In this document: positions 6,607 through 34,216 of the stretch, in pieces
How the letters are laid out: every line of letters starts with the position of its first letter
Numbering within the stretch: the first letter of the stretch is position 1
Source: Pedobacter frigiditerrae
GTDB lineage: Bacteria; Bacteroidota; Bacteroidia; Sphingobacteriales; Sphingobacteriaceae
DNA: 64,000 bases
Reading direction: 5' to 3'
NCBI RefSeq assembly: GCF_032678705.1
Contig: NZ_JAVTSS010000001.1
Coordinates: forward strand, 2,046,001-2,110,000
The notes under the pieces: model-generated
What the model was told of the DNA's origin: nothing
The model's input: only the letters and a program-made list of their open reading frames with translations
The model's database searches: none
Made by a program: the position numbers and the translations under genes

Positions 6607-6682
6607 TTTATATGTATTTAAGCTGATGTTGTGTTTTGCAAACATCCATCAAATCTTTTTATTTTCTTTATTTATGCTGGTT

Positions 6683-15837: not shown

Positions 15838-16983
15838 TTATGGTTTTGTGGCTTCTTTTAAATTGATCAACTGAAAGGCAATACCTTCATAAGGTTTTTC
15901 TATTCCTGCCTCATACAAAATACCCAATCCCTTGTTTTTATAGGTTGTAATATCAGAATAAGCGGCTGGTCCAGCATGAATAACTTTTGCATTTGTCCAA
16001 GAAGTTCCTTCATCAAAACTTGTGCGTAGGGTTAAATTCATTCTTTTGGTTTTGTGTGCTGGGTTGATAAAAAACAACACTGGCTTTTTACCAATTGCAC
16101 TATTCAATAAACTACCCTGACAAATAGGTTCTACAAGTATGCTATCCTTTCTCACATCAGACCAAGTTTGTCCGCCATCATTACTTATACTAGTATGTCT
16201 TTGTTTTATTGTTCTATCGGCATTACGCATATTCAACATTAATCTACCATTACCAATTTCCGCAACTGTGGTTTCATTCATTTGATCTTGTGGCGTATTG
16301 TTACCTAGCTTCCAAGTATCACCATGATCATCAGAATAAATAATGTTAGCAAAATTCTTTTTGGCAGGCATTTCCACATGGTTAACGGGCACAACTAGTC
16401 TGCCTTTATATTGTCCATTTGCAATTTGTAACCCATGGCAAGGACCTGTTGCATACCATGTCCAGTTATTCATTTTAACACTACTAGTGATTTCTTTTGC
16501 TGAAGTCCAGGTTTTGCCATCGTTGTCAGAATGTTGTACATAGACCTGGCGACCTTTTTGGCTGCTTAAATCTATGATTTGTTTCTCATGGTCTGTTCCT
16601 AAATTCCAACTAGTCACCAATAGGATTCTACCATTTGTTTTATCCAAAATTGAAACCGGATTACCACAAGTATTGGTTGAGTCACTTCGAACCACCTGCA
16701 ATTCAGACCAATTTTTGCCACCATCAATGGAGCGTCTTAGGACTATATCTATATCACCAGCATCACCACAGTTAAGTTTACGAGCCTCTGCAAATGCAAG
16801 CATTACATTTTTAGAAGTTGTTAATAATGTTGGGATGCGGAAACAAGCATATCCCCCATCACCAGGTTTATAAATAAAATTAAGCGGTATAGTAACTGAA
16901 GATTGGGCAAATGAAGATTTGATGGAAAAAACCCCAATTAAGCCAATCATTAATATAGCAAAGCGATTTAGGAATATATTCAT
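15838..16983 (-). CDS. Exo-alpha-sialidase (GH33) with Sec signal peptide (sialidase 2)
   Basis: A BNR-propeller sialidase of 381 aa from the chosen start, which gives a clean signal peptide MNIFLNRFAILMIG..SSFAQ; an in-frame ATG 12 codons upstream would add a polar extension. Catalytic residues: FRIP Arg (49), acid/base Asp in GDAGDID (74), Glu in MNETTV (237), Arg in LMLNMRN (253), Tyr in AAYSDI (342). Five Asp boxes include SIDGGKNW and SDDHGDTW. The protein is soluble and periplasmic or secreted. It is first in a two-gene operon with the sulfatase and follows a perfect operator palindrome. This is the compact single-domain form of the family. Confidence 0.93.
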   Translation of the reverse strand: MNIFLNRFAILMIGLIGVFSIKSSFAQSSVTIPLNFIYKPGDGGYACFRIPTLLTTSKNVMLAFAEARKLNCGDAGDIDIVLRRSIDGGKNWSELQVVRSDSTNTCGNPVSILDKTNGRILLVTSWNLGTDHEKQIIDLSSQKGRQVYVQHSDNDGKTWTSAKEITSSVKMNNWTWYATGPCHGLQIANGQYKGRLVVPVNHVEMPAKKNFANIIYSDDHGDTWKLGNNTPQDQMNETTVAEIGNGRLMLNMRNADRTIKQRHTSISNDGGQTWSDVRKDSILVEPICQGSLLNSAIGKKPVLFFINPAHKTKRMNLTLRTSFDEGTSWTNAKVIHAGPAAYSDITTYKNKGLGILYEAGIEKPYEGIAFQLINLKEATKP

Positions 16984-17033
16984 TGCAAGATTTAAATTTG
17001 GTTGGTGCCCGATAATCAATCAGGTAGCTAGAA

Positions 17034-17110: not shown

Positions 17111-18271
17111 TTATTTACTAATTAGATCTCTGATTTTAACTGTTTTTAATACAATGCGATAGTTTCTACTTACCGTTTCATTAGATTCATAAAGGCAATA
17201 AATCTCGCCCTTCTTTCCTACAGCCAAATCTGAATAACCTGCAAAACCTGCGTCCAATATTTTTTTTACTGTCCAATTCTCACCATCATCGAAGCTAACT
17301 TTAGCTGTAAGGTTTTTACGTGGTATTTTAGGGTCGTTCTGGGTATCAGGATTAACAAAAAGTAAAGCTGTTTTACCATCAGTCCCTTGGTTTGGCAATT
17401 TAATTAAGCTGGCCATGCAAATGGGTTCATAAAGTTCTTCATCAAAAGTTGGCACTGTCCATTTTGTAGCACCATCTGCACTATAACTTATACCCCTTCT
17501 TCGAATATCAGTTTCATGCCTAATGTTTAACATCACTCTTCCATCATTTAATTGAACTGCTACCGTTTCACTTGGATTTTTAAAGTTTGGATTATTGATT
17601 GCAATGATATCTCCATTTTGCCATGTCTTACCTTGGTCATCACTATAAATGGTGGCAATGCTAGATGGACGATGACTTTTATGCGGTAAGAGTTTATCTG
17701 AATCTGCTAACCAAATAGGCACCAATAACCTTCCATTTTGCAATTGTATAGAATGCCCAGGACCAGGGGCTAATACTTTCCAGTTATAACTTGCTTTAAA
17801 TTTCTCAAAAGCATAAGTTATGTCGGTTGGCGGAGTCCATGTCTTACCATCGTCTGTAGATTTAATATAAAATGCCTCTGCATAACCACGTTGGTATAAC
17901 AAATGGATTGTACCATCACTACCTACAATTGGCGTGGCGTTACTAGTTGGCTCAATTCCCCTTCTTGGCGCTACAATTTGCTCTGCTGCCCAGGTTTTAC
18001 CACCATCAAAGCTTCTTTTTAACACGATATCCATTTCTGCCCAATCACTTGCACTTGCAATTCGACCTTCACAAAAAGCTAATAAAGTTCCTTTTTTAGA
18101 TACAACTAACGCGGGAATACGCATTGAAGCGTAGGCACTTCCCTTAGGTTCAAAAACGGTAACCGTGGTTGATTCACTACTATTTTGCATACGAACTTTG
18201 CATCCAGCAATGCTGATGAAAAACACAAAACAGATTAAATAATGGAGCGGCTTAAGCATTAGGGACTTCAT
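17111..18271 (-). CDS. Exo-alpha-sialidase lipoprotein (GH33, sialidase 3)
   Basis: A 386-aa BNR sialidase with a lipoprotein signal (FFISIAGCKV, Cys24), so membrane-anchored. Catalytic residues are visible: MRIP Arg51, acid/base Asp76 (SASDWAEMD), Glu235 (PSETV), Arg251 (VMLNIRH), Tyr346 (AGYSDL). Asp boxes: SFDGGKTW, STDDGKTW, SDDQGKTW, a degenerate SADGATKW, SFDDGENW. It stands alone: its own operator lies upstream and the next gene's operator lies just after its stop. Anchoring differs from neighbouring sialidase 2, suggesting work in a different compartment or on a different linkage. Confidence 0.93.
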   Translation of the reverse strand: MKSLMLKPLHYLICFVFFISIAGCKVRMQNSSESTTVTVFEPKGSAYASMRIPALVVSKKGTLLAFCEGRIASASDWAEMDIVLKRSFDGGKTWAAEQIVAPRRGIEPTSNATPIVGSDGTIHLLYQRGYAEAFYIKSTDDGKTWTPPTDITYAFEKFKASYNWKVLAPGPGHSIQLQNGRLLVPIWLADSDKLLPHKSHRPSSIATIYSDDQGKTWQNGDIIAINNPNFKNPSETVAVQLNDGRVMLNIRHETDIRRRGISYSADGATKWTVPTFDEELYEPICMASLIKLPNQGTDGKTALLFVNPDTQNDPKIPRKNLTAKVSFDDGENWTVKKILDAGFAGYSDLAVGKKGEIYCLYESNETVSRNYRIVLKTVKIRDLISK

Positions 18272-18417: not shown

Positions 18418-18472
18418 ATATATGTACCAAGTATCTTCCAGCCCACCTAACAAGGGCATAATCTTTTCACAA

Positions 18473-19711
18473 ATGACAAAGCTATTTCTATGCCTTACCT
18501 ACGCATTGATCTTCATTTGCCACCCTTCATTTGCACAAGAAAAATCTGAAAAACCATTTATCAAACAAACACTTGTTTTTCCTTTTGCAGAAAAAAACAA
18601 ACCTAATTATAGAATTCCTGCCATAGTTAGCACAAGCAATGGCAACCTCTTAATTTTTGCAGAAAAGCGAAGGAAAAGCGTTGCAGATGTAGGTTATACA
18701 GACATCATTATGACTCGAAGTACAGACAATGGCGCAACTTGGGAAAAGGAAGTTTTATTATTTGGTGGCAATAACGAATCTCATGCTGATCCAACTACCC
18801 TTGTAGACCGAATAAACAAAAAAGTATATCTTTTCTTTTTGAGGGATAAAAAGCAATTCTACATGATGTATACGATGGATAATGGCAAAAGTTGGAGTAC
18901 GCCAAAATCTATTCACAATGAGGTAACAAAACCTGAATGGGATAGTTACAGTGGTTCTACTAATCGGGTAAGTTCACCTCCAGACTCTATTAGCAAAGCT
19001 GAGGACTGGAAGCAAAATTGGCAACAAAGTTATGGTATTGGCCCAGGCAATTCGGGCATCCGCTTAATTACAGGAAAAAGAAATGGAAGATTGCTTGTTC
19101 CTATAAGGCGAAAAAATGCTACCCACGTAGTTTATAGTGATGACAATGGCACATCGTGGCAGGTTGGCCCAGTTGCTGTAGAAAGAGCATCGGAAGCACA
19201 ATTAATAGAATTAGCCAATGGCGATGTCATGATAAACGCTAGAAATGGAAACACTACTGATAGCACCAATATTAAACGGATCGTTAACATCAGCCATGAT
19301 GGCGGTGATACCTGGGGCAAAAGTTACCTCGATAATAATTTGGAAGAAACTAGTTGTAATGCAGCCATCATTCGTTTATCATCCATGAAAGATGGAGGCC
19401 AAAATCGCCTGCTATTTTCCAATCCAAAAAACAATGTAAGAACCGCAAAACATCCTTATGGACGTATTAATATGTCGGTACGTTTAAGTTATGATGAAGG
19501 CAAAAGCTGGCCAATTAACAAGACAATCTATCCATATACTTCGTCTTATTCTTCACTGGTTGTACTAGATGATCAAACCATTGGGATTGTTTACGAGAGA
19601 GGAAAGGATGCAAAAACGCCTTACTATTGGGATGAATTATGGTTTGCACGCTTTAACATCGAATGGTTAACCGATAGTAAAGATTTTAGAAAGAAAAGTG
19701 ATACTAACTAG
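18473..19711 (+). CDS. Exo-alpha-sialidase (GH33) with Sec signal peptide (sialidase 4)
   Basis: A 412-aa sialidase from the chosen ATG, which begins the signal peptide MTKLFLCLTYALIF..SFAQ; the in-frame ATG 17 codons upstream adds a polar, unlikely leader and would start only 4 bp after the -7 box. Catalytic residues: YRIP Arg47, Asp72 (VADVGYTD), Glu241 (ASEAQL), Arg257 (MINARNG), Tyr359 (SSYSSL). Asp boxes STDNGATW, TMDNGKSW, SDDNGTSW, SHDGGDTW and SYDEGKSW are all clear. An insertion at about 150-190, rich in Ser, Trp and Gln, is not seen in its paralogues. It is the only plus-strand sialidase and is divergent from sialidase 3 with paired operators between them. Confidence 0.93.
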   Translation: MTKLFLCLTYALIFICHPSFAQEKSEKPFIKQTLVFPFAEKNKPNYRIPAIVSTSNGNLLIFAEKRRKSVADVGYTDIIMTRSTDNGATWEKEVLLFGGNNESHADPTTLVDRINKKVYLFFLRDKKQFYMMYTMDNGKSWSTPKSIHNEVTKPEWDSYSGSTNRVSSPPDSISKAEDWKQNWQQSYGIGPGNSGIRLITGKRNGRLLVPIRRKNATHVVYSDDNGTSWQVGPVAVERASEAQLIELANGDVMINARNGNTTDSTNIKRIVNISHDGGDTWGKSYLDNNLEETSCNAAIIRLSSMKDGGQNRLLFSNPKNNVRTAKHPYGRINMSVRLSYDEGKSWPINKTIYPYTSSYSSLVVLDDQTIGIVYERGKDAKTPYYWDELWFARFNIEWLTDSKDFRKKSDTN

Positions 19712-19786: not shown

Positions 19787-21010
19787 TTAAGGTTCTACTG
19801 AACCATTTAAAATCCATGGTAAGTTAAATTTATGGAATTCTATAGAACGGTTACTCGTTGCCGAGCTAGCAGTGTTTTCATTGATTTCAATCAATGCACC
19901 AACCATATTATCAGCCGTTTTAGCCATACTTGAATAACCACCCTTTCCCTGATCAATAGCTTGTTGCTCTGTTAAGTTATCAAAAATCCTGCGACTTATT
20001 GGCCAACTGCTTCCTTCATTGTAACTAATCCTCACCCTCATTTTTCCTCTGGTTTCTGTACTGGCAGAATTGAGGAACATGATTCGGTTAGGGCTGTCTG
20101 TATACCTAAGTACGGAAGCCTGACAAGCTGGATCAAGCAGTTCATCATCAGCGGTCCAACTTGGGAAACTTGTAATTGTCCCATTAGAAATTCTTCTTCT
20201 TTTAGATAATTCCCATTGGCTACCTACGGCTCTGTCGTTACGAATTAGACCACCGTTTAGTTTTTCTAGCACTGTTCCCTCGCTGGTTCCAGATGGCAAG
20301 GTTTGATAAGCCCAAGTCTGTCCATGATCATCACTATAAATATTTCTGCCAATAGCAGGAATAATTAACCTACCTGTTGCTCCTGTTTTGTTCTTTTGCG
20401 CACCAACACCTGGCCCCATCGCGTCCCAAGTTTGTCCGGGTGGCAATAAGGTAGCAGTTAAATCTAATGGGGTTGACCAACTTGAACCATGGTTATCGCT
20501 GTATGAAGCGTATACTTTACGTTCTCCCCAACTGTCTATAGGTTGATAACCATCCGTTCCAGACTGATTATGTACATCATCATTCCATGACATAAATAGC
20601 CATACTCTACCATTTGATTGATCTACAACAGCCGTTGGGTTTCCCCAAGTACCCGGACCAACGCCAACTACTTCGCCCATGGCAGACCAAGTAGCACCAT
20701 TATCTGTTGATCTTTTGAAAACTACATTGATATTGCCATAATCCTTATTGTCCGACATTCGTCCTTCTGCAAAAGCTATCAATGTTCCATTAGTGGTCCT
20801 GATTAGGGATGGAATGCGAAAAGAATGGTACCCACCAGTACCACCATCAAAGATTTTTGCCTGTTCATGCACTTGTGTAGCAGCCAAAGCCTGAACCTGT
20901 GGTTCTTTGTCTAATAGCAAATTACTTTCTTGGAATTCTTGTTGTTTAGCACAGGCCATGAAAGTCAATAGTCCAAATCCAACAAAGCTTAGTTTAATTT
21001 TCTTGTTCAT
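19787..21010 (-). CDS. Exo-alpha-sialidase lipoprotein (GH33, sialidase 5)
   Basis: A 407-aa BNR sialidase with the lipobox LLTFMACAK (Cys20). Catalytic residues: FRIP Arg65, Asp90 (DNKDYGN), Glu in GTSEGTV, an Arg in GLIRNDRA and Tyr359 (GGYSSM). The Asp boxes are STDNGATW, SDNHGSSW, SDDHGQTW and SYNEGSSW. The region around the second Arg (LIRNDRAVG) departs from the MLNMR form of its paralogues and resembles actinobacterial-type sialidases. No operator palindrome lies directly upstream, so it may be read through from nanA or have its own promoter in the 150-bp gap, which holds a long hairpin. Confidence 0.92.
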   Translation of the reverse strand: MNKKIKLSFVGFGLLTFMACAKQQEFQESNLLLDKEPQVQALAATQVHEQAKIFDGGTGGYHSFRIPSLIRTTNGTLIAFAEGRMSDNKDYGNINVVFKRSTDNGATWSAMGEVVGVGPGTWGNPTAVVDQSNGRVWLFMSWNDDVHNQSGTDGYQPIDSWGERKVYASYSDNHGSSWSTPLDLTATLLPPGQTWDAMGPGVGAQKNKTGATGRLIIPAIGRNIYSDDHGQTWAYQTLPSGTSEGTVLEKLNGGLIRNDRAVGSQWELSKRRRISNGTITSFPSWTADDELLDPACQASVLRYTDSPNRIMFLNSASTETRGKMRVRISYNEGSSWPISRRIFDNLTEQQAIDQGKGGYSSMAKTADNMVGALIEINENTASSATSNRSIEFHKFNLPWILNGSVEP

Positions 21011-21163: not shown

Positions 21164-22114
21164 TTAGTTGGCGATGGCTTGCTCCTGACTCACGATATTC
21201 GCAGGAGCATAAGTTTGAAGCAAATCGAAGAAACCAATTGACTTCAATTCACCATTTAGCTTGTTATAATCAGCATCAGATAATGGAACCAATGGCAATC
21301 TTGCATCGCCAAGATCAAAGCCTAGCATTTTCATGATTGCTCGTTGGGCGGCAATAGATGGATATTTAGCAAAACACAAGATAAAATCTACCACTTTTAA
21401 TTGTAGATCACGTGCTTTGTCAATTTCGTTCGCCTTAAATAATCTTATAATTTCTATGTAAACTGGTGCGGCGAAAGTGTAGGTGCTACCAATTGCTCCA
21501 ACAGCTCCTATAGCAAGTGCACTTAATAATAATTCATCAAAACCAGACAGTACTTCAAATTTACCTTCATTAAAATTTAAGCAAGCTTGAAGTTCATGAA
21601 GTGACGATGCTGTGTATTTTATTCCAGCCAAATTAGGAATACGTTCTTCACCTAGTCTCAAAAACTCTACCATATCCATTCCAACGCCAGTTAATGTAGG
21701 CATGTGATAATAGTAGAATGGCAAGTTTGGCGCTGCAGAAGCAATTTCTGCCATGCAGTTTACCAAATTTGAAACCGAAACAGGCTTAAAATAGAATGCG
21801 GCAACTGATGAAAATGCATCAGCACCAATTTTTTCTGCGTGAATTGCTAATTTTTTACACTCTGCTATTGACGTATGTCCAACATGTACTAAAATAAGAA
21901 TTCGCTTGTTCGCAGCCTTCACATATGCTTCTGCAATAGCCATACGCTCTTCAACAGTCATGTTCGGGCCTTCCCCATTGGTACCACATATATAGATTCC
22001 AGAAATTCCTTCCGATATTAATTTATCTACTAAAGAAGGAATGATTGAAAGATTTAAAGATCCATCTTTCTGATATGCAGCAAATGTTGCAGCTACTATG
22101 CCTGTTATTTTCAT
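21164..22114 (-). CDS. nanA: N-acetylneuraminate lyase (sialic acid aldolase)
   Basis: Cleaves N-acetylneuraminate to N-acetylmannosamine and pyruvate, the first cytosolic step of sialic-acid catabolism. The 316-aa TIM barrel shows the Bacteroidota/animal type of NAL: GTNGEGPNMT motif (44-53), catalytic Tyr136 in PFYYYHMP and Schiff-base Lys166 in LAGIKYT, both in the expected places, plus the LTGVGMDM region typical of sialic-acid lyases. No signal peptide. It has its own operator and -7 box 37 bp upstream and is divergent from the secreted esterase. It is distinct from the DapA-type enzyme at 6.7-7.6 kb. Confidence 0.93.
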   Translation of the reverse strand: MKITGIVAATFAAYQKDGSLNLSIIPSLVDKLISEGISGIYICGTNGEGPNMTVEERMAIAEAYVKAANKRILILVHVGHTSIAECKKLAIHAEKIGADAFSSVAAFYFKPVSVSNLVNCMAEIASAAPNLPFYYYHMPTLTGVGMDMVEFLRLGEERIPNLAGIKYTASSLHELQACLNFNEGKFEVLSGFDELLLSALAIGAVGAIGSTYTFAAPVYIEIIRLFKANEIDKARDLQLKVVDFILCFAKYPSIAAQRAIMKMLGFDLGDARLPLVPLSDADYNKLNGELKSIGFFDLLQTYAPANIVSQEQAIAN

Positions 22115-23426: not shown

Positions 23427-24290
23427 TTAATTACAAAAACGAGCAACAGCACCTAAAATCATAGCTTGCTCACCTAAAAGAGATGGGCGAACAGGAATGC
23501 TATAACCCATGGCTTCTGCTAGGTATTTCCTTGTTTTGTCTAAAAAGTATTGTTCAGCTTTGATAATATTACCACCAATTACAACAGCCAATGGTCTTTT
23601 TTTAGTAATGAAGAAATATAAAAAAGAGGAAAGGTTTCTACTAAATTCCTCAAACAAAGTTTGAAAATGTGGTGAGTGATGATGATTATCTACCAAGTCT
23701 TTTACATCTTTAATTGCCACACCACTTAGTTCCTTAAATCTGCTAACAAACCATTTTGTTGAGATATAATCTTCTGCTATGCCACTAAGTAATGGCGTTT
23801 TCCAAAGGTTTGAATCTTGTGCCTTGCCTTTAACTGTATGTGCTGTACCTAGTCCCGTCCCCAATGTTAAGCCGATCGCATTATCAAACTCGCTTACACT
23901 TCCATTAAAAAGCTCACCCTGTAAAAAAGAAGCAGCATCGTTCATGAAATGGATATTTGATTTTTCAAAACCTAGCCTATTAGCCAAGAGTTCTTTAATA
24001 TCCTTACCATAAAGATCATCGTATTTGTTCATTCCCTTAATGTGGGAAATCCCATTTTTATAATCCATTGGGCCAGGCATGGCTAGGCTAATATATTGTG
24101 GTTTAAATGGAGAACTAGCCATAGAAGACTCTATTGTATTCGCCCATATATCGATAATTTCATCCGTTTTAGCGTTGGTGTTTAAATGATTCCTTTGCCA
24201 GGTTGAACTAAGCCCTTCCTTTTTAGCAATATCTACCAGTTGGGAAGTAATGTGTGAGCCGCCAATATCGACCCCTAATATTGTTTTCAT
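23427..24290 (-). CDS. ROK-family sugar kinase lacking the zinc-binding cysteine motif
   Basis: A 287-aa cytosolic ROK protein. The phosphate-binding GVDIGGSH (6-13) and the catalytic Asp in FMNDAAS (118) are present, as are the GTGLGTA loop and a C-terminal VIGGNI motif. The H-x..-CxCGxxGC zinc motif of most ROK kinases is absent, and at 287 aa it is shorter than the usual ~310-320. It is last in an operon with a sialidase-like gene and a sialate O-acetylesterase, and the context suggests it phosphorylates ManNAc, mannose or another sugar released by the lyase. The substrate cannot be fixed from sequence. Confidence 0.82.
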   Translation of the reverse strand: MKTILGVDIGGSHITSQLVDIAKKEGLSSTWQRNHLNTNAKTDEIIDIWANTIESSMASSPFKPQYISLAMPGPMDYKNGISHIKGMNKYDDLYGKDIKELLANRLGFEKSNIHFMNDAASFLQGELFNGSVSEFDNAIGLTLGTGLGTAHTVKGKAQDSNLWKTPLLSGIAEDYISTKWFVSRFKELSGVAIKDVKDLVDNHHHSPHFQTLFEEFSRNLSSFLYFFITKKRPLAVVIGGNIIKAEQYFLDKTRKYLAEAMGYSIPVRPSLLGEQAMILGAVARFCN

Positions 24291-24342: not shown

Positions 24343-25743
24343 TTACCAATTATCAGTTCTAAAAGGAGCCATTGGCAATCCTTCAACATTGTACAAATTA
24401 CCAGCACTAGTATCTTTAAAGGCATACCTTACCGCTACAGGCACTTTTACTTTCTCGCTAGTTACTGCAATTGTTCTGGCTGCTATTACGGCATTTGCCT
24501 GATAAAAGACTTTATCCTCTCCGGCAATTTCAAAAGAGATGATTTTTTGATCGTAACTCGTTAATCCCATCACAACATGATCAAAACTTAAGACAGCTTT
24601 ATCTCCAGTAATTTTTAATGATTTGTAAGTTGGACCCATAAAAGAGATACCTTCTTTTCCATAATCTTTTGCCAATGCCCAATAAAGTAACCGTTTGCTG
24701 ATGATGGTTTTATTTGGAGGATGTATGGTTGTGTTACTTCCAGCATCTACACTTACCACCATTCCAGAATTCGGAATGAGCGCTGCTGCTTTTGCCTGTG
24801 CCTCATATAAAAGTGGGATGTTTTCTTTGACATCCTTGTAAACATTAGGAGCAATTTGCACATAATAAAACGGCCAATTGCCAATATCCCATAACTTGCG
24901 CCATTCGGTTACCATAGCAGCCATTTTCCTATCGTACGTTAGTGGATTAAATCTGTTGTTCTCTCCTTGATACCATAAAACTCCTTTTATATGAAAACCT
25001 ACAATTTGGTTAATCATCGCATTGAACAATACTGTAGGATCGTTTTTTATGATTTTTGCGCTATCTGGTGGATTTTTAAAATCAGAAAACCCATCTAAAC
25101 TCTTTTTAGTCATCCAAGCTTCTATATCTGTTCCTCCATAAGCCGATTGAATAATTCCCACTGGAACATTTAACTTTTGCTGTAACATACGTGCAAATTG
25201 ATAACCAATTGCACTAAATTCTTTTACGCTAGCGGCACTTGTATGTTCCCATTTATTTGAAAGCACAGTTAATGGTGTTCTGCTCAAGTTCTTTTCAATT
25301 CTAAAAAGTCTAACGCCTGGTTGATCTGCATCAGTAAGGATATCATTTGAATTGAGCGTTGGCTGATTGCCAAAACCTTTAACTGGCATTTCCATATTCG
25401 ACTGACCAGAGCAAAGCCAAACCTCTCCTATCAAGATATCGTTAATGACTAATTTCTGTCCGTCATTAAATGAGATTTCATACGGTCCACCAGCTTTTGG
25501 TGTTTGGATTTTAATGTTCCAGTTTCCAGCAGCGTCAACCTTAGTCTGATGGTTCAATTTATCCCAAGACGCCGTAATGCTAAGCAAAGAATTAGGCTTA
25601 GCCTTTCCCCAAATTTTAACTTTTTCTTTTTGCTGTAATACCATTCCGCTTCCAAATACCGCAGGAAGTACAACATTTGCTTGTAGAACTTGGATGCAGC
25701 TCAACAGCATCAATACTAGCACGATGATTCTTTTCATTTTCAT
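24343..25743 (-). CDS. Sialate O-acetylesterase (SASA/SGNH family), secreted
   Basis: A 466-aa protein with a signal peptide (to about residue 22, LLSCIQVLQAN), an N-terminal beta domain, then the SGNH esterase domain: CSGQSNMEMP with the nucleophile Ser115 and GVLWYQGENN oxyanion region. It removes O-acetyl groups from sialic acids, allowing sialidase action. In the usual C-terminal catalytic block GDANDIHPxNK, this protein reads SNTTIHPPNK: the His is kept but the preceding Asp is Thr, so activity is not assured. It lies 6 bp downstream of the sialidase-like gene. Its paralogue at 42-44 kb keeps the Asp. Confidence 0.87.
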   Translation of the reverse strand: MKMKRIIVLVLMLLSCIQVLQANVVLPAVFGSGMVLQQKEKVKIWGKAKPNSLLSITASWDKLNHQTKVDAAGNWNIKIQTPKAGGPYEISFNDGQKLVINDILIGEVWLCSGQSNMEMPVKGFGNQPTLNSNDILTDADQPGVRLFRIEKNLSRTPLTVLSNKWEHTSAASVKEFSAIGYQFARMLQQKLNVPVGIIQSAYGGTDIEAWMTKKSLDGFSDFKNPPDSAKIIKNDPTVLFNAMINQIVGFHIKGVLWYQGENNRFNPLTYDRKMAAMVTEWRKLWDIGNWPFYYVQIAPNVYKDVKENIPLLYEAQAKAAALIPNSGMVVSVDAGSNTTIHPPNKTIISKRLLYWALAKDYGKEGISFMGPTYKSLKITGDKAVLSFDHVVMGLTSYDQKIISFEIAGEDKVFYQANAVIAARTIAVTSEKVKVPVAVRYAFKDTSAGNLYNVEGLPMAPFRTDNW

Positions 25744-25749
25744 TGTATT

Positions 25750-26883
25750 TTAATCGTTATTTCGTTTTTCCAATAGCCATTCCATGTTAAATCTGGCCAA
25801 TGAAACTTTTTGGGGCATGTGTTTTCTTCCGCCGTGCCCATAAAGGCAGATGATACTTTTATCTGGAAGCACTGCTAAGTCCGAATAAGTTGCTCCGCCA
25901 GCTTCTAGCAAACGAGCTATCGGCCAAGTTTTACCTTCATCTTTACTCATTCTAATGCTGAGGTCTTTCCTTTGAGTTGGGTCAACTGGTTGAGAAATAA
26001 GGTAAGTTGTTGGTGAATAATTGGTTAGACCTATATCACAAACCTTACCAGTTAATGCCGTATCATATTGTAAAACCCTAGACCAAGTTACCCCTCCATC
26101 TTTACTCCAAACTTTAGCTTGGTAAGCTCCTGCCTTGGGATTTAAAGTTCTGCCAATTAACAACAAGTCTCCGTTTTGCTGGGACACCAATTGCGACTCG
26201 TTCAACTCTCCAATTGGAGTATCGCCACCAACTTTCCAGCTTTTGCCATGATCATCACTATAAATACAATTAACTCCATAATTCCTTTGTGCTGCTGGAA
26301 ATGTTATCGATTTTCGGTGCCAAATTGGGATAACCAATCTACCATTCTTTAGCTGAATACCATGACCTGGACCCGGTAAATGGAAGGTCCATCCATTTAA
26401 ATTATTTTCAAACAAGGATGTAATTGATTTAGCCTCCGACCAATTCAAACCATCATCTTTACTCACTTTATAGAAAACCTCAGTATGTTTATTTTCGTAA
26501 TTTAAGGCATAAAAAAGAAAGATCTCTTTTGTCTTTCGATTTTGCACAACTGTTGGGTTTGCCCATGATTGTCCACCCTTACTTTCTACCACAACCTGCG
26601 ACTTTGAAAAACTGACACCTTTGTCTGTACTTCTTTTCATGACAATATGATGTGCGCTATCATCAGCACCAGTTGTTATTCTTGCTTCTGCAAACGCAAG
26701 GATGCTACTCTTGCTAGTCACATGTAAACCATATACAAAATAAGCAAAAATGCTATCCTCCTTTTCTTCCCATACCGTTGTTTTATGCAATAACGTTTCC
26801 TTTTCATTAATCCTGCTTTTGAAAGAATGGTTAATGAAAAAAAAGAATGACAGGACCAAAACATTAAGCCTTGTCATTTGCAT
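25750..26883 (-). CDS. Sialidase-like BNR protein lacking the RIP arginine (sialidase 6, divergent)
   Basis: A GH33-type propeller with Asp boxes (a degenerate STDKGVSF, then SKDDGLNW, SDDHGKSW, SKDGGVTW, SKDEGKTW), acid/base-like Asp (GADDSAHH), Glu in LNESQL, Arg in LLLIGRT and Tyr in ATYSDL. The F/Y-R-I-P motif, whose Arg binds the sialic carboxylate, reads YFVYGL in exact alignment with its paralogues. I chose the start giving MQMTRLNVLVLSFFFF.., a signal peptide; a longer frame starting 13 codons upstream would run through the operator palindrome. It heads an operon with the sialate O-acetylesterase and ROK genes. It could be an enzyme with changed specificity or a binding protein. Confidence 0.82.
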   Translation of the reverse strand: MQMTRLNVLVLSFFFFINHSFKSRINEKETLLHKTTVWEEKEDSIFAYFVYGLHVTSKSSILAFAEARITTGADDSAHHIVMKRSTDKGVSFSKSQVVVESKGGQSWANPTVVQNRKTKEIFLFYALNYENKHTEVFYKVSKDDGLNWSEAKSITSLFENNLNGWTFHLPGPGHGIQLKNGRLVIPIWHRKSITFPAAQRNYGVNCIYSDDHGKSWKVGGDTPIGELNESQLVSQQNGDLLLIGRTLNPKAGAYQAKVWSKDGGVTWSRVLQYDTALTGKVCDIGLTNYSPTTYLISQPVDPTQRKDLSIRMSKDEGKTWPIARLLEAGGATYSDLAVLPDKSIICLYGHGGRKHMPQKVSLARFNMEWLLEKRNND

Positions 26884-26899
26884 ACGAAATAATAAGTTA

Positions 26900-26914
26900 T
26901 TATGTAGGTCATAA
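26900..26914 (-). promoter_or_regulatory. Regulon operator TTATGTAGGTCATAA (sialidase 6 operon)
   Basis: Core TATGT-AGG-TCATA has one mismatch. It lies 17 bp before the chosen start of sialidase 6 and argues against the longer upstream start, which would place the operator inside the coding sequence. Confidence 0.62.
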
Positions 26915-27161
26915 TAAAACAAATATGGAGAATTATTTATTACTGTTCCTAATTTTTAGAATTATTTTTTTGAGGGAGGTGAGATGTAATTAAGGTGGGC
27001 AATGTTGTTCGAACACAAAAAGGCAATAAAACCCCTAATAACTAGGTTTCGAAAAACATTGATTTAATTAAATGCGGACTAAAATTATTAAGATTTTGAC
27101 CAAAATAAATTTTTATATTCTTTTAAATCATTGTTTTTTATAAATTCCTGAGACCCGACAA

Positions 27162-27890
27162 CTACAAGACAGTGAACTTGAAAACTGAAGATTCTGATTT
27201 ATTTCCTAATTTGTCTTTTGTTACAATTTTCCAGTAATAAACGGTCGCTGGAGTTACAGAGACAGACAATAATGCACTTACATGATCATTCTTTAACAAT
27301 GGAGGACTCGCAGTTGTTCCGAAGTAGATGTCATAGCTCAGGATGTCAAAGTCTGGATCATCACCCCTCCAAACGAGATTTATTTTTCCGCTGACTGAGG
27401 AAACGCTTGCATCCATCAGAGGTGAAGTCAATTCTGCAGGATATGGGGTAAAGGACGAAGTCGCTTCTCCAGCATTGTAAAATCGCCAAATATCGCTCTC
27501 TAAAGAACTAGAATTCAAACTCGAATTTGTTTTAACCGACCATGAGAATGCTGCGTTTTTTGCTAAAGCTAATTCAATTTGCGTGTTAGTTGTGGTACCA
27601 GTGGTCAACTCAGATGTTACTAAATTCTTAACCGTTATAGCATAATCTTTTACAAAAGCAGAAGCGTTCCATTTAAATGTAATTTTATTCATTGTACTGG
27701 TGTAAGGGACACCCGTGGTGCATAGCTCATCTTTTGCAGGAGCAATCAGCACTGCCTTTGTTGTTTCGTTAGGCTTGGGCGCAGGTGGCACAACTGGTGG
27801 CGGAGTGGGAGTCGGATCTTTAGATTTGCCGCCGCAACTAAACATACAGGATGCCATCGCTATTAAGAATATTGATTTTATATATCTCAT
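27162..27890 (-). CDS. Lipoprotein with proline-rich linker and two FN3-like domains
   Basis: A 242-aa lipoprotein: signal with lipobox CMFSCGG (Cys about 19), a PTPTPPPVVPP linker (about 26-41), then two beta-sandwich units (about 45-145 and 150-242), each with a conserved Trp (FKWNAS, WRGDDPDFD) as in fibronectin type III-like domains. No catalytic motif seen. Its start codon overlaps the stop of the 2109-aa T9SS protein gene by 4 bp, so the two are co-translated, and it may be a surface partner or anchor for that protein. Function unknown. Confidence 0.78.
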   Translation of the reverse strand: MRYIKSIFLIAMASCMFSCGGKSKDPTPTPPPVVPPAPKPNETTKAVLIAPAKDELCTTGVPYTSTMNKITFKWNASAFVKDYAITVKNLVTSELTTGTTTNTQIELALAKNAAFSWSVKTNSSLNSSSLESDIWRFYNAGEATSSFTPYPAELTSPLMDASVSSVSGKINLVWRGDDPDFDILSYDIYFGTTASPPLLKNDHVSALLSVSVTPATVYYWKIVTKDKLGNKSESSVFKFTVL

Positions 27891-30800
27891 TTTTTGATGA
27901 TTTTAGATTGTCTGACCAAATTTTCCGACTCAATTTTTAGCATATATATCCCTGATGTTAAAGTCGATAAATCTAACGAAATCTCCATATTCTCTATAGT
28001 ATGGGCTTTTGAGTAAACTTGTCTCCCATTTAAGTCGTAAACATATACTTTTACAACTCTCTGGTGAAACTCGGATCCAATCTGTACCTTCAAAATTTGT
28101 TCAAATGGATTTGGGTAAGGCATTATACCAGACGCCAATGTTATGCTTTTTTTGATTACACCCTGACAAGCAAGATCTGAGGTTATCATCAAACTATTAC
28201 TCCCAGTGCGAAGTGGCAGCGTAATATCATTATTGCTCGTTGTATAGTTTTTTCCATTGAGTTCAATATGATACGTACTTGCTCCATCCAAATTTAAGGT
28301 CACTGTTTGATCGGCATTTACAATTGATGAAAACAATGTAATGTCTTTTGGCTCTGTAACTACTACTTCAAAACACTGCTTAAAATCTGGGTAACCCGCC
28401 GCTGTAATGCAAATCGTATAATTTGCAGCCTGTAGTGATCCTACTTGTAAATTTGAAGTAAAATTTAACGTCTTGTTGAAACTAGGTCCTGACACTATAG
28501 CCGTATAGTTCATATTGGCTGTAGCGTTAATTTCAATGGATCCGTTATTCGATGACCTACAAGTTTCATTCGTTGCCTTTATTTTAAAATTGGTTTGAGG
28601 TAGTGTATTCAAAACGTTGAACAAAAATGGTTGCGAAACCAACCATTTTTCTTTGTGCTTAATTGCTACAGTATATGATCCAGCCTCGCTAACGGTAAGT
28701 ACGTTTGATGTTGCTCCTGGGATAATGACCCCATTTTTTCGCCATTCATGAATGAAAGAAGACTCGGTATTTGCAGTAAGCTTTAATACGGTACCAAGAT
28801 AGTAAGGCGAATTTTTATCAACTGAAATACCTGGTGCCTTTGCTAAAACAAAGCCTGGCAAACTTGCAGTTCCATAAGTCGTCTGCACTGTAATCTCTCC
28901 AGATCGTAGAAACTCTGATGCAGGAAGCTTCACGGTAATAGTATTGTCATCCACCAAGGTGAAAGGGAAGGAAACTGAGAACCAAACCTTGAATGTTTCT
29001 GTAAAATATTTGCCTTTAATTGTAACTGTTTCACCGATTTCGGCAACCATCGGACTGAAAGACGTTATTATCGGCGGAGGTGTAAATTTAAATTGAAGAT
29101 AATCAAACGAACCTTCATCACTGGTCAAAGTAACAGGACCACTATCTCCTAGGCCAACCACTGCTGTAATCACAGTAGAGGATTCAATCTTAAATGACGA
29201 CGCTTGCACACCACCAAAACTCACTCCTGTAACCGAATTGAAGTTGAAACCGGTTAACGTTATAATTTTTCCTTGTGCACCTGATGTTGAAGACATATAG
29301 CTCAAAACAGGTTTAGTAATCTGTTTACTAGAAAGTACTGCAGAAGAACTGAATTCTGAAAATGTTATGATGTCAGGTTTTCCATCTTCATCAATATCTG
29401 CCGTTATACCTAATATTGGAGTATGCGGCTGTGCATACTTTACACCCTCGGCAAAAGAGATATTTCCAGGCTGACTAGTATTTTTCAAAACTGCAACCGC
29501 ACCGATTGCCCTAAATATATCAGGTTTTCCATCTCCATCTAAATCAGCTAGATTAACAACAGAAATGGCTTCTGTCTCTTTAAGTACCTCTATAGCCGGA
29601 GCAAAGCTAATCGTACTTAAGGTACTGGTATTTCGAAAGGCCAAAATACTGTTGCTAGCTACTAACAATTCAGCTTTGCCATCACCATCAATATCTCCTG
29701 CAACCAAATCTGATCCTGCAGTTGCAATTTGAAAGATTAATGGAGCATCGAATGAAATTTGCCCACCTTGACTTGTGTTTTTAAGGATTACAGCTTGGTG
29801 TGAAGAATTGCTTGTATAAGCCAAATCTATCTTTCCATCACCATTAAAGTCTTGCAAAATCAGTTTTGGAACCCAACCTTGTGCTAACAAATCTACTTGC
29901 TGTCCAAACTTAATGGTTCCTGCGCTACTTTCATTTCTGAAAATAGAGATTTTTTTATTGCTGTAGTATGATATTACAACATCTGTTTTACCATCATTAT
30001 CTACATCACCTACTTTGATATCTGACAATGAATGATCATTCTCTCCATCTACAGCAAAATCCAATTGAGTGAGTGAGATTTTACCGGGAACGGAAGTGTT
30101 TTTAAATACATGAAACTGATAATAGCTATAAACCACTAAATCCATTTTTCCATCTCCATCTATATCGGTAACAAGACTGGTTTCGGCCTGATTGATCATT
30201 GGGATGACTAATGGCGCATCGTAGATGGTTTGTCCATTTTTTTTACCAGCACGATAGATATGTAAAGACTTATCGTTGAAATTATTCAGGCTGTAGATGA
30301 AATCCATTTGACCATCACCATCCAGATCTGCCACTGTCCCCTTTTTATAAGTGGAATGAGGACGAATTGCAGGTGCAAAAGATTTTTCAGTAAAACCACT
30401 TTGGTCACCTGCGAAGGTAAGTACAAAAGAATTGATACTAGATCCAATCAAACCATTGGAAGTCACCGATATCGGTGCATAGGTCGCTTTAGATGGTACG
30501 GTGACAGTAAGCGTAGTAGAAGTGGCAGCAGTGACCGTTCCATATGCTAAACCGAACAATACTTTATTTTCTGAGATGTTTTCGCTAAAATTTTTACCTG
30601 ATATAACGATGGACGTTCCTGCATTAGCCTTCACTGGGAAAAACGAACTGATGATTGGAGGTAGACCGTATGAAAAGCCAGGTAAGGTTGATGAGCCAAA
30701 AGAATTGGCTATAGTGACTGATCCACTTGCACCGTCGCCAACCGTGGCGGTTATCTGCGTTGGAGAGTCGATTATAAATTTGGCAACTGGCAATCCGCCT

Positions 30801-33800
30801 AGGTTAACAGTACTCACTCCAGTAAAGTTTGTACCTGTAATAACTACGACATCACCTTTTTTAGCAATTGAAGGAGTAAAAGAAACTAAAAATGGAGACT
30901 TATTGACTTTGTTTTTTAGATAGGAAATCTTAGCGTTTCCTTCGCTCTGGAAAACAATGTCTGGTTTGCCATCTTGATCAATATCGCCTGCACTAATTGT
31001 TTTTACATTGCTGAGTGTTGCAAACATCACTTTCTGCGCTAACTTAGGGCTTCCAGTTGAACTGATATTTTTTAAAACAGATGCAGATTTGTCTACCTCA
31101 CTATAAAATAGTACGTCTATCAATCCATCACCATCCAGATCGTGAATAGACAGACTTGTTGGACGGCTTCCTACCGGATATTTCAATGGTGTAGCGAACG
31201 CAAAAGAGTTATTACCTGTGTTTTTATAAACATTTAATTCGTTAAGATTATTGCTTATCGTGACTAAATCAATTTTGCGGTCTCCATCAATGTCTGCCGC
31301 CACAAATTCTGATGGCCTGCTCGTTGGAATCTCTAGCACTTTTGTAAAAGAAATTTTGTCTAAGGTACTTTCGTTTTTATAAACATCGAGTTTATTTAGC
31401 GTGGAGCTACTGTCATAGGTGATCATATCTAGCTTACCGTCATCATCAAAATCCGCAATTTCTACAATTGGCCCAAAAATCTCATCGTAATTTGCAAAGC
31501 TAATGTTGCCAGGGCTAGATGTATTTTTTCTGATTAATCCACCTGTAACGAAATCAGGTTTCCCATCTCCATCAATGTCCCTGAACCCAAAATACGGGTT
31601 GTTGACGCTAGAAAGAACGTTTGGCGAAGCCAAAAAGGAGATCTTTCCAGGACTTGAAGTATTCTGATAGATGAAAACCCCTGGGTACACGTATCGATCG
31701 CAGATTACCATATCTGGCTTTCCATCGCCATCCATGTCTTTTGCGCTAAAAATAATTTCCGACGATTGAAAAAATAAACTAGTCTTTTCATCGAACTTAG
31801 CCTCGCCAGCAATTCCTTTGTTGCGGTAGAATGCCACTTCGTTGGTGTTAATACTTCCTTTGATAAGCAAAACGATATCTAAAAAACCATCTCCATCAAA
31901 ATCATAGAGTTTAAAATCACTTGGTTTTCCTATTATGGGAAGATAAATTTTATCGGCAAAGGATTCGCTGCTAATGCTATTTTCGCTACTTAAAGTCTTT
32001 ACGAATGGTGTTTTTCCATCTGCCGTGAGCGAATTTGTAGTTACAGAAAGGGGTTTGAAGGTAGAAATTGCAGGAACCTCCACTGTTAAAGCCGTAGCAG
32101 TAGCGTTAATCACCTTTCCTTTAATGTCACCGAACAACACAATATTCCCATTAATGTCATTACTAAAGTTCGACCCGGTAATAGTTATGCTACCTCCGCT
32201 TGTACTGAAACGCGGACTGAAGTCATTGATTTTTGGAGGGTTGTAAAAGGTAAAGCCAGGCAAGGAATGTGTGCCATTTTTGGTTGTAACGATTACAGAA
32301 CCACTACTCGAAGCTCCCACAACCGCCGAAATCATGGTTGTATTTATCACAGTAAAGGACTTAACCGCTGTATTGCCAATACTAACTGCCGTAGCCCCTA
32401 AAAATCCAGCCCCTTTAATAACTACGATCTCTCCATTTGTACCACTTGTTGGGGTAAATGATTCAATGGTGGGCAGCATATTGAATCCTAGCAATGCAAT
32501 AGTACCTCCCAAGGATGTTACGGCCACGCTTCCGGATTCGCCAACGCCAACTACCGCATCAATCCTTGTGGGAGAAACTACAGAGTATGACATTACTGGC
32601 ACCCCTCCAAATGTTACTGCTGTAACATTAATGAAATTGCTACCATTAATGGTAACAGTTCTCCCTTTAGTCGCACTTGTAGGTGCAAAAGATGTAATGG
32701 TTGGAGGGGGAAGATAGTTAAAGCCTGCCATCACTGAAAAGCCGCTTGGACCTGCCACATAAACTTCTCCAGATTTTCCGGCACCCACTTTTGCCATAAT
32801 AGTAGTGGGAGAAACAACAGTAAACGACGAAGCATTTGTTCCTCCAAAGGTTACCTTGGAAGCTCCTGTAAAGTTTATTCCTGTTATTGTAACTATTGAA
32901 TTTAATCCAGCATCTTTCGGAGAAAAATCCATAATTTGAACACCCTGCTGAAGCAAGATCTCCTTCGTTAACGAAGCAGTCTGTATACCGCTTGTAACCA
33001 CCAAGGTAATTTTGTTTTTTAGGTTAAAATTATCCCTTTGAAAATTTACATCGTAGGAAGTTGCAATGACCACATCATTTAGCAACCATTTGAAACTGTA
33101 ATCTGACTTTGAAAAATTCAACAACTTTACGGTATTTGTTGTTGATAATGTACTGAGATCTATCCCAAACACTGGTCGGAGAATGGGCACACCCCCGCCA
33201 TTTGTTGTTGATTCTATAAAACCATAACCACCACCAACCCAAAAATTGTCCTTATCCCAAAACTGAGCATCATAATGAGTGTAACTCAGATAACTAAAGT
33301 TATTATCCCGAGGTAATTGTTCCCAGTTTTTGCCCCCATTTGAAGTTTTATATATGATATAGTCAGGGCCAATGGCATAGCCTAGGTTGTCGTCAAAAAA
33401 TTTTATTTTAGTAAAATACAAGGGATCGTATTCCGCATTGTTTTTTAAGTCCCAAGTATTTCCTCCATCAGCACTGGAATATAGGTAACCACCGTAATCT
33501 TCAAGATTTAACCAAACTTTTGCCGAGCTTAAATGAGTTGCACTTTTTATTATTCCATTAAAACCAGTTGGGAGCTTAAGTTTGGTAAATGAAACGCCGC
33601 TATTGGTAGATCGAATGACTTCTCTAGCACCAACAGCTGCCACAAAAGTACCTGAAGCCTCAATTTGCTTGTAGTATGATCCTGTGGAAAGATAGATACT
33701 TACCCATGTTTGGCCCTTGTTGGTCGTTTTAAGTATGCGATCCTCATCAATGGCATAGCCAATGTTACCATTGTCGGGAAACACCATATCTATCATATAA

Positions 33801-34216
33801 GAAAATTTAGTGTCGCTACTTTGTTGGTGATAAACGATTTTGTAGGTCTCACCCCCATCGGCTGAAGTGAGGATTACCGGTACAAGTCCGTAATCTCCGT
33901 ATATGATCAAATTATTCTTGTCGAAGGCTTTCACTCCTGAAATAGCAAAGCCAAAAGTCAGGTTTACGGAAAAGCCATTAAAATTTACATTGGTAAGTGT
34001 GATACGCTTCTTTTGAAAGGTAGCTCCGCCATCTATGGTATAGCCAATCCAATCTCTAAATGCAATATACCCTTCAGTTTTTGAGTAAAAACAGAATTTC
34101 CGAACCTCATTATCTTCATTGCTATCCTTATAAACCTGTTTTAATTGCGCATAGGCTTGATGGAAGGCAAACATTAAAAAAAATGAACAAAGGAGCGTTA
34201 GTAGTTTAGATTTCAC
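27887..34216 (-). CDS. Giant T9SS-secreted multidomain protein (BNR/YCF48 propeller, TIG and FG-GAP/VCBS repeats)
   Basis: 2109 aa. In order: signal peptide (1-23); a Ycf48/BNR-type propeller (about 25-345; TTNKGQTWVS, SADGGNTW, TSNGGKNW); a short beta domain; four IPT/TIG units (about 430-760; ATKGRTVTINGSNF type); seven FG-GAP/VCBS repeats with calcium-binding DxDGDGxxD loops; two TIG units; seven more FG-GAP repeats; two TIG units; Ig-like domains (about 1840-2020); and a C-terminal T9SS type A sorting domain (YPNPFEQ.., GIYMLKIESENLVRQSKIIKK-like end). It is exported to the surface by type IX secretion, with 14 calcium loops stiffening it. An adhesin or glycan-binding role is likely. No operator of the sialic regulon was found upstream. 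Confidence 0.9.
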   Translation of the reverse strand: MKSKLLTLLCSFFLMFAFHQAYAQLKQVYKDSNEDNEVRKFCFYSKTEGYIAFRDWIGYTIDGGATFQKKRITLTNVNFNGFSVNLTFGFAISGVKAFDKNNLIIYGDYGLVPVILTSADGGETYKIVYHQQSSDTKFSYMIDMVFPDNGNIGYAIDEDRILKTTNKGQTWVSIYLSTGSYYKQIEASGTFVAAVGAREVIRSTNSGVSFTKLKLPTGFNGIIKSATHLSSAKVWLNLEDYGGYLYSSADGGNTWDLKNNAEYDPLYFTKIKFFDDNLGYAIGPDYIIYKTSNGGKNWEQLPRDNNFSYLSYTHYDAQFWDKDNFWVGGGYGFIESTTNGGGVPILRPVFGIDLSTLSTTNTVKLLNFSKSDYSFKWLLNDVVIATSYDVNFQRDNFNLKNKITLVVTSGIQTASLTKEILLQQGVQIMDFSPKDAGLNSIVTITGINFTGASKVTFGGTNASSFTVVSPTTIMAKVGAGKSGEVYVAGPSGFSVMAGFNYLPPPTITSFAPTSATKGRTVTINGSNFINVTAVTFGGVPVMSYSVVSPTRIDAVVGVGESGSVAVTSLGGTIALLGFNMLPTIESFTPTSGTNGEIVVIKGAGFLGATAVSIGNTAVKSFTVINTTMISAVVGASSSGSVIVTTKNGTHSLPGFTFYNPPKINDFSPRFSTSGGSITITGSNFSNDINGNIVLFGDIKGKVINATATALTVEVPAISTFKPLSVTTNSLTADGKTPFVKTLSSENSISSESFADKIYLPIIGKPSDFKLYDFDGDGFLDIVLLIKGSINTNEVAFYRNKGIAGEAKFDEKTSLFFQSSEIIFSAKDMDGDGKPDMVICDRYVYPGVFIYQNTSSPGKISFLASPNVLSSVNNPYFGFRDIDGDGKPDFVTGGLIRKNTSSPGNISFANYDEIFGPIVEIADFDDDGKLDMITYDSSSTLNKLDVYKNESTLDKISFTKVLEIPTSRPSEFVAADIDGDRKIDLVTISNNLNELNVYKNTGNNSFAFATPLKYPVGSRPTSLSIHDLDGDGLIDVLFYSEVDKSASVLKNISSTGSPKLAQKVMFATLSNVKTISAGDIDQDGKPDIVFQSEGNAKISYLKNKVNKSPFLVSFTPSIAKKGDVVVITGTNFTGVSTVNLGGLPVAKFIIDSPTQITATVGDGASGSVTIANSFGSSTLPGFSYGLPPIISSFFPVKANAGTSIVISGKNFSENISENKVLFGLAYGTVTAATSTTLTVTVPSKATYAPISVTSNGLIGSSINSFVLTFAGDQSGFTEKSFAPAIRPHSTYKKGTVADLDGDGQMDFIYSLNNFNDKSLHIYRAGKKNGQTIYDAPLVIPMINQAETSLVTDIDGDGKMDLVVYSYYQFHVFKNTSVPGKISLTQLDFAVDGENDHSLSDIKVGDVDNDGKTDVVISYYSNKKISIFRNESSAGTIKFGQQVDLLAQGWVPKLILQDFNGDGKIDLAYTSNSSHQAVILKNTSQGGQISFDAPLIFQIATAGSDLVAGDIDGDGKAELLVASNSILAFRNTSTLSTISFAPAIEVLKETEAISVVNLADLDGDGKPDIFRAIGAVAVLKNTSQPGNISFAEGVKYAQPHTPILGITADIDEDGKPDIITFSEFSSSAVLSSKQITKPVLSYMSSTSGAQGKIITLTGFNFNSVTGVSFGGVQASSFKIESSTVITAVVGLGDSGPVTLTSDEGSFDYLQFKFTPPPIITSFSPMVAEIGETVTIKGKYFTETFKVWFSVSFPFTLVDDNTITVKLPASEFLRSGEITVQTTYGTASLPGFVLAKAPGISVDKNSPYYLGTVLKLTANTESSFIHEWRKNGVIIPGATSNVLTVSEAGSYTVAIKHKEKWLVSQPFLFNVLNTLPQTNFKIKATNETCRSSNNGSIEINATANMNYTAIVSGPSFNKTLNFTSNLQVGSLQAANYTICITAAGYPDFKQCFEVVVTEPKDITLFSSIVNADQTVTLNLDGASTYHIELNGKNYTTSNNDITLPLRTGSNSLMITSDLACQGVIKKSITLASGIMPYPNPFEQILKVQIGSEFHQRVVKVYVYDLNGRQVYSKAHTIENMEISLDLSTLTSGIYMLKIESENLVRQSKIIKK

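Follow-up and report, generated by a model that had tools for sequence, protein, structure and literature searches.

A triad of arginines is regarded as a defining and indispensable feature of sialidases, and we take the glutamate of the LYE motif to be the residue that buttresses the first of these arginines (R1), as E361 presumably does for R37 in Salmonella NanH; a literature search for this partner role returned no paper. Mutation of R1 inactivates T. forsythia NanH (PMC9472817), and the arginine contacting O4 is R276 in RgNanH (PMC4510645). The Trypanosoma cruzi protein TcTS Y342H resembles the protein described here in having a sialidase fold with one key residue changed, but it lost the nucleophile, whereas ours retains the nucleophile and lost a carboxylate arginine (PMC3515882). 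Fungal Kdnases of family GH33 have shifted to another nonulosonate and, unlike the present protein, retain the full triad (PMC11727334), and P. aeruginosa PA2794 (pseudaminidase), as cited by title in PMC3658417 and PMC2716378, has a sialidase fold with proposed variations of substrate and mechanism. In the open-access literature, we found no report of a bacterial sialidase clade without R1.

The stretch of DNA analysed here, 64,000 nucleotides from a soil-type member of the Bacteroidota and hereafter called the window, is a sialic-acid utilisation region. It encodes six sialidase-type proteins, NanM, two DHDPS-family proteins (one lyase-like), a GntR/FCD regulator, SusC/SusD-type proteins, a sulfatase, a SASA-type esterase and a ROK kinase-like protein. 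Five of the sialidases carry R-I-P at the start of the propeller, as established by Pfam or domain search with alignment: 15838–17019, 17111–18271 and 19787–21010 on the minus strand, 18422–19711 on the plus strand, and a two-domain protein (BNR_assoc_N plus BNR_3) at 1583–3226 on the minus strand. The sixth, named the FVY protein after the residues that replace this motif, is our subject.

A sialidase-like protein without the first triad arginine

The FVY protein is encoded on the minus strand at 25750–26883, giving 377 residues from the ATG at 26883; the frame is open over 25750–26922 and would give 390 residues from a TTG at 26922, the reading that our residue numbers follow. When the six window sialidases are aligned, F62-V63-Y64 occupy the column that reads R-I-P in all five paralogues, and D87, E242, R258, R318 and Y346 are common to all six. 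R1 is Phe in the FVY protein; the second and third triad arginines, R2 (R258) and R3 (R318), are retained. Across all paralogues and 31 sequences, Y346 and E242 match the Tyr/Glu nucleophile pair and D87 the Asp acid/base. Five Asp boxes can be read from the sequence—STDKGVSF, in which Phe replaces Trp, SKDDGLNW, SDDHGKSW, SKDGGVTW and SKDEGKTW. A sequence-only reading of the window had claimed both the exchange of R-I-P, present in five paralogues, for F-V-Y and the survival of the acid/base Asp, the Glu, the Tyr and the later Asp boxes, and the alignment and the sequence bear it out. It had missed two further replacements: G362 stands in place of the partner Glu that accompanies R1 in ordinary sialidases (LYE to LYG), and H91-H92 stand in place of Ile-Asp beside the acid/base loop.

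AlphaFold2, run with a 31-row alignment, predicts a six-bladed sialidase propeller with an N-terminal hydrophobic helix resembling a signal peptide (mean pLDDT 92.6, pTM 0.89), and the protein is probably periplasmic. The best solved matches listed for this model are sialidase structures, headed among those listed by the Micromonospora viridifaciens sialidase 2ber (Z 46.9, 1.6 Å over 325 residues). The structure prediction suggested by the sequence-only reading returned a sialidase propeller. The M. viridifaciens enzyme, a member of GH33, is also the closest solved relative by sequence (phmmer E 6.3e-24), and Pfam assigns the FVY protein to BNR_2.

With the GH33 exo-sialidases of M. viridifaciens (2ber/1eur) and Clostridium (NanI, 2bf6), the FVY protein has in common the fold (Z 46–47), the Asp boxes, the acid/base Asp, the Tyr/Glu pair, two triad arginines and the O4 arginine; it differs in having Phe for the R-I-P Arg, Tyr for the Pro, Gly for the accompanying Glu and His-His beside the acid/base loop. 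By fold, Asp boxes, Tyr/Glu pair, Asp acid/base and descent within the family it belongs with GH33, and it lacks the full arginine triad and the (F/Y)RIP motif. We therefore describe the FVY clade as GH33-derived without a full triad and, because the complete triad and the RIP motif are absent, withhold the exo-sialidase label.

Operon and regulon context

The FVY gene heads an operon in which a SASA gene and then a ROK gene follow at gaps of 6 and 52 bases. The second gene (24343–25743, minus strand) encodes a SASA-family, sialate O-acetylesterase-like protein (Pfam SASA E 1.4e-21), and the third (23427–24290, minus strand) a ROK-family kinase-like protein (Pfam ROK E 1.2e-15, residues 5–157) for which no NCBIfam equivalog scored above cut-off. 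An operon with a sialate O-acetylesterase and a kinase had been proposed from the sequence; the operon and the SASA match stand, and the kinase assignment shrinks to a partial ROK match over residues 5–157. Adjoining the operon, 27887–34216 reads as a 2109-residue secreted-looking repeat protein with a C-terminal sorting-like tail, whose repeats we take to be IPT-like and FG-GAP-like.

A palindromic operator, TTATTATG-ACCTA-CATAATAA (26897–26917, no strand), lies 13 bases before the ATG at 26883 and holds the regulon motif TATGTNNNACATA with one mismatch at 26901–26913. Because this operator falls within the TTG-started reading, translation more likely starts at ATG 26883 than at TTG 26922. 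Allowing up to one mismatch, we counted TATGTNNNACATA 12 times in the window, where 3.95 were expected and none of 100 shuffles gave as many, and its sites precede PhyH, SusC, sialidase and lyase genes as well as the FVY gene. This enrichment, together with the site at 26901–26913, confirms the earlier placing of the gene under a regulon operator. Another operator candidate, TGTTCGAACA, was rejected as no better than chance (25 matches versus 27.8 expected), and a search for inverted repeats in 26923–27161, a range that stops short of the operator, returned none.

The probable reader of the operator is a NanR-like GntR/FCD protein at 8560–9276 (minus strand), whose best NCBIfam match is NanR, below cut-off. 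Other genes of the window include a NanM-type N-acetylneuraminate epimerase (5488–6645, minus strand; Pfam NANM E 1.2e-37, above cut-off), an N-acetylneuraminate lyase-like DHDPS-family protein (21164–22114, minus strand; Pfam DHDPS, with PRK04147 as best NCBIfam match, below its cut-off) preceded by three operator sites (22152, 22205 and 22255), and a sulfatase (14364–15809, minus strand; Pfam Sulfatase) with relatives at 43–44% in other FVY loci (L135 and L136).

Occurrence and ancestry of the FVY clade

Nine FVY proteins were found in eight genomes from two Bacteroidota families. A scan of one genome per species gave 35 relatives, one of which is also F-V-Y-G (Niabella ginsengisoli, locus L054, 47% identity). 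Besides the window genome, a sample of 301 genomes from its family yielded G593 (63% identity) and G555 (40%), and besides Niabella, a sample of 394 genomes from its family yielded G991, G976, G881 and G1039, the last with two tandem copies. No further members appeared in overlapping samples of 59 relatives and of genomes from the genus (145), the class (395) and the phylum (395); the large-group profile searches scored the best 4–6 candidates per genome, taking only matches over the E-value limit, and may have missed some. Among the 145 genomes of the genus, the window genome is the only one with an FVY protein, which speaks against vertical inheritance within the genus and makes horizontal exchange of the gene within the two families likely.

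All nine proteins have F-V-[Y/F]-G, His-His, W[HN]R and LYG. The clade retains the acid/base Asp, Glu, Tyr, R2, R3 and the AEAR Arg; among the eight full-length proteins, R2, R3 and the Tyr/Glu pair never vary, and the Asp is also kept. Frames are open in eight of the nine genes, the Niabella copy being frameshifted, with its LYG read from another frame. Two FVY genes stand in tandem in L135 (8582–9703 and 10303–11445), one of which reads FVFG and carries GEA in place of NES around the Glu. Fixation of the same residues in nine proteins of eight genomes excludes decay or sequencing error. The proposed search for orthologues with the same F-V-Y thus yielded a clade of this size instead of an isolated, clearly decaying gene, and the suggestion of a kept but changed function gains support from the coordinated change in nine proteins, eight open frames, membership of the same regulon and a high-confidence sialidase fold. 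Because a small family of relatives shares this loss of R1, the FVY gene probably encodes an altered enzyme and is not a broken gene.

In an unrooted tree of 103 rows, built after masking the motif columns, one clade (SH-aLRT 99) unites the eight full-length FVY rows with an R-I-P sister sialidase (L112 9130–10413, genome G483). The FVY-only branch has a support of 53; FVY is placed once and needs one change. The FVY rows fall into two halves, the window protein with G593, G976 and G991 (support 99) and G555, G881 and both G1039 copies (support 100), and the clade nests among R-I-P sialidases, with R-I-P retained in the neighbouring groups. Given one group with an R-I-P sister and R-I-P neighbours, R1 would most simply have been lost once, from an R-I-P ancestor, on a tree that is unrooted and weak at the FVY-only branch. 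End branches in subclade A (0.29–0.32) are not longer than the tree median (0.36), and so give no sign of decay.

The sister shares FH[LM]PGPGHGI, W[HN]R, RxYG, NES and an Asp at the CxAS position with the FVY proteins but, unlike them, retains R-I-P and LYE and has Lys-Ser where they have His-His. Beside the sister gene in G483 lies a relative (L112 10629–11414, 60%) of a phytanoyl-CoA dioxygenase-like protein that is encoded in the window at 7625–8404 under the regulon operator; from this adjacency, the window protein may be part of sialic acid use.

The sialic-acid setting recurs across the clade. NanM is present in all eight FVY genomes, at most 26 kb from the FVY gene in seven, and a NanR-like GntR protein in all eight, within 17 kb by coordinates in six. 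With TATGTNNNACATA as the operator motif and a GntR protein in 8/8 FVY genomes, the clade fits a NanR-type regulon with a shared operator and a regulator predicted to bind it. The FVY gene of G593 lies apart from any nan operon, yet a perfect TATGTACTACATA stands 59 bases upstream of its start; the nan operons of that genome carry TATGTTCTACATA, the same motif as the operator at the orphan gene. Perfect motifs precede the SusC gene or the first gene of the FVY-bearing cluster in G976, G991 and G555, and the 20-kb locus of G1039 has none at up to one mismatch. Next to FVY in G991 and G976 is a gene for NanM fused to a sodium:solute symporter domain (L133 10585–13317 and L134 6775–9444). Sulfatases and R1-bearing sialidases accompany several FVY loci, GH31, GH127 and nucleoside-hydrolase-like genes neighbour FVY in some, and a SASA esterase adjoins it in the window only. 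FVY clusters also hold sialidase-like proteins with IQ[SA]PA at the R1 site (L054 1925–3559, L136 5064–7001 and L135 3–1454) that have lost the Glu, R2 and acid/base positions and are candidate sialoglycan-binding proteins.

Covariation between the first arginine and its putative partner

A profile of 31 sequences matched 161 frames in the loci examined. Wherever R1 is Arg and the partner readable, the partner is Glu (107/107; eight more Arg rows have an unreadable partner), and it is Gly in all eight FVY rows in which it can be read, two rows being cut. The other rows without R1 pair, as R1/partner, E with Q or N (L059, two genes), Y/S (one), G/D (three), H/T (two), H/E (two) and Q with an unreadable partner (three); the remaining rows are gapped at R1. 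Counted by rows the covariation is strong, but counted by events it is weak, because well-supported branches hold only four independent losses of R1; three of these coincide with loss of the Glu, and no event runs in the opposite direction (sign test, P = 0.25).

The E/Q or N rows are neighbouring sialidase-like genes of a Planctomycetota locus (L059 6267–7646 and 7908–9164) with Glu at R1 (YEVPA and YEIPV) and Asn or Gln at the partner position; by sequence they are a second R1-less pair, separate from FVY. The H/E rows, an HVP group from two Bacteroidota genomes (L106 1336–2652 and L128 1375–2628), have His at R1 and retain the partner Glu.

Relative to the R-I-P sister, the fixed differences of the FVY clade include F62, V63, Y64 (Phe in one), H91, H92, S108, S114, L182, G298, L338, G362 and P370. 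In this comparison the clade has not gained any fixed Arg or Lys, the only new cationic residues being the two His. Normal Neu5Ac hydrolysis with another Arg filling the R1 site had been named as an observation that would count against a changed function, and no orthologue gained such an Arg. W201-H202-R203 was rejected as a substitute for R1, as the sister also has that Arg.

Discussion

From the directly observed sequence change, its conservation, the covariation by rows, the fold, the regulon motif and the neighbourhood, we infer catalysis, a substrate and a role for each replaced residue. Our main reading, held at a probability of roughly 0.5, is that the FVY protein is a secreted glycosidase that derives from sialidases, keeps its catalytic equipment and has a rebuilt carboxylate subsite, acting on a sialoglycan that ordinary sialidases handle poorly. 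The carboxylate clamp would have been rebuilt by exchanging R1 for Phe and its accompanying Glu for Gly, with Val-Tyr-Gly and the His-His pair around them, leaving the acid/base Asp, the Tyr/Glu nucleophile pair, the O4-contacting Arg and the two other triad arginines unchanged. The enzyme would still bind C2 of sialic acid or a close relative and use a Tyr-linked covalent intermediate, and its carboxylate pocket would consist of two arginines and an aromatic or hydrophobic wall at the former position of the third. Such a pocket would be expected to tolerate a C1 acyl group other than a free carboxylate. Working alongside five ordinary sialidases that share its NanR-type control, the enzyme would most likely target a sialoglycan in which the carboxylate at C1 is not an anion that is free and presented in the ordinary way, with lactone or ester forms as leading candidates. 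Against this reading, a tested sialidase is inactivated when R1 is lost, and the FVY proteins could likewise be inactive.

A narrower version, a dedicated glycosidase for sialic acids with C1 blocked as a lactone, ester or amide, is tentative and on balance doubtful. In this version the two arginines would bind the acyl oxygen, and the alkoxy side would find room at the Phe/Tyr/His wall. C1-blocked sialic acids occur naturally (PMC10202986, PMC3658417): gangliosides in lactone form withstand ordinary sialidase (PMC10202986), and mucins are reported to contain bound Neu5Ac 1,7-lactone (PMC3658417). Of the three options offered by the sequence-only reading—a different sugar, an esterified or lactonised sialic acid, and a lectin—the second appears the most attractive on chemical grounds. 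The sequence itself holds no pointer to lactones or esters, and GH31 and GH127 at some loci would also suit a wider glycan.

An ordinary exo-sialidase with a weakened carboxylate clamp, for which two arginines suffice to cleave the usual Neu5Ac glycosides more slowly or with looser specificity, would explain why all other catalytic residues, the sialidase fold and nan regulon membership are retained, but we consider it unlikely. Mutation of R1 inactivates T. forsythia NanH (PMC9472817); the joint replacement of R1, partner and Ile-Asp, fixed in 9/9 proteins, looks adaptive, and the window genome already has several intact sialidases.

Less probable still is a glycosidase for another nonulosonate or a differently presented ulosonate (pseudaminic, legionaminic or Kdo-like), its free carboxylate reoriented by R2, R3 and the His pair. 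The retained nucleophile pair suits 2-keto acid sugars, and PA2794 offers a precedent for a sialidase-like protein with another nonulosonate (cited in PMC3658417 and PMC2716378), but the association with NanM and NanR suggests Neu5Ac. Kdnases retain all three arginines (PMC11727334), so a changed sugar alone need not cost R1, and KDN is rejected as the reason for its replacement. A wholly different sugar, as offered by the sequence-only reading, is conceivable, yet the clade is constantly linked to NanM, NanR and ordinary sialidases, which suits that option badly.

A hydrolase of a sugar lacking the C1 carboxylate, co-opted into sialoglycan breakdown, would account for the loss of R1 with its partner and for the GH31, GH127 and nucleoside-hydrolase-like neighbours at some loci; it is improbable, given that none of the eight full-length proteins departs from R2, R3 and the Tyr/Glu pair, residues that serve an anomeric centre bearing a carboxylate. 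Least probable is a sialic-acid-binding lectin or sensor without turnover, for although loss of R1 can kill turnover and inactive lectins of sialidase fold such as TcTS Y342H are known (PMC3515882), such lectins lost the nucleophile, whereas all catalytic residues but R1 are retained here, the Tyr, Glu and Asp of every full-length member being unneeded in a pure lectin.

Under the main reading of a rebuilt carboxylate subsite, automated annotation of these proteins as exo-alpha-sialidases may be wrong for the FVY clade. If lactonised or esterified sialic acids are the substrate, the enzyme would provide both a tool and a breakdown route for sialoglycans left intact by ordinary sialidases. A conserved clade that lacks one arginine and its accompanying glutamate, yet remains in a sialic-acid regulon, is a natural experiment on the role of that arginine and on how the sialidase family changes substrate.
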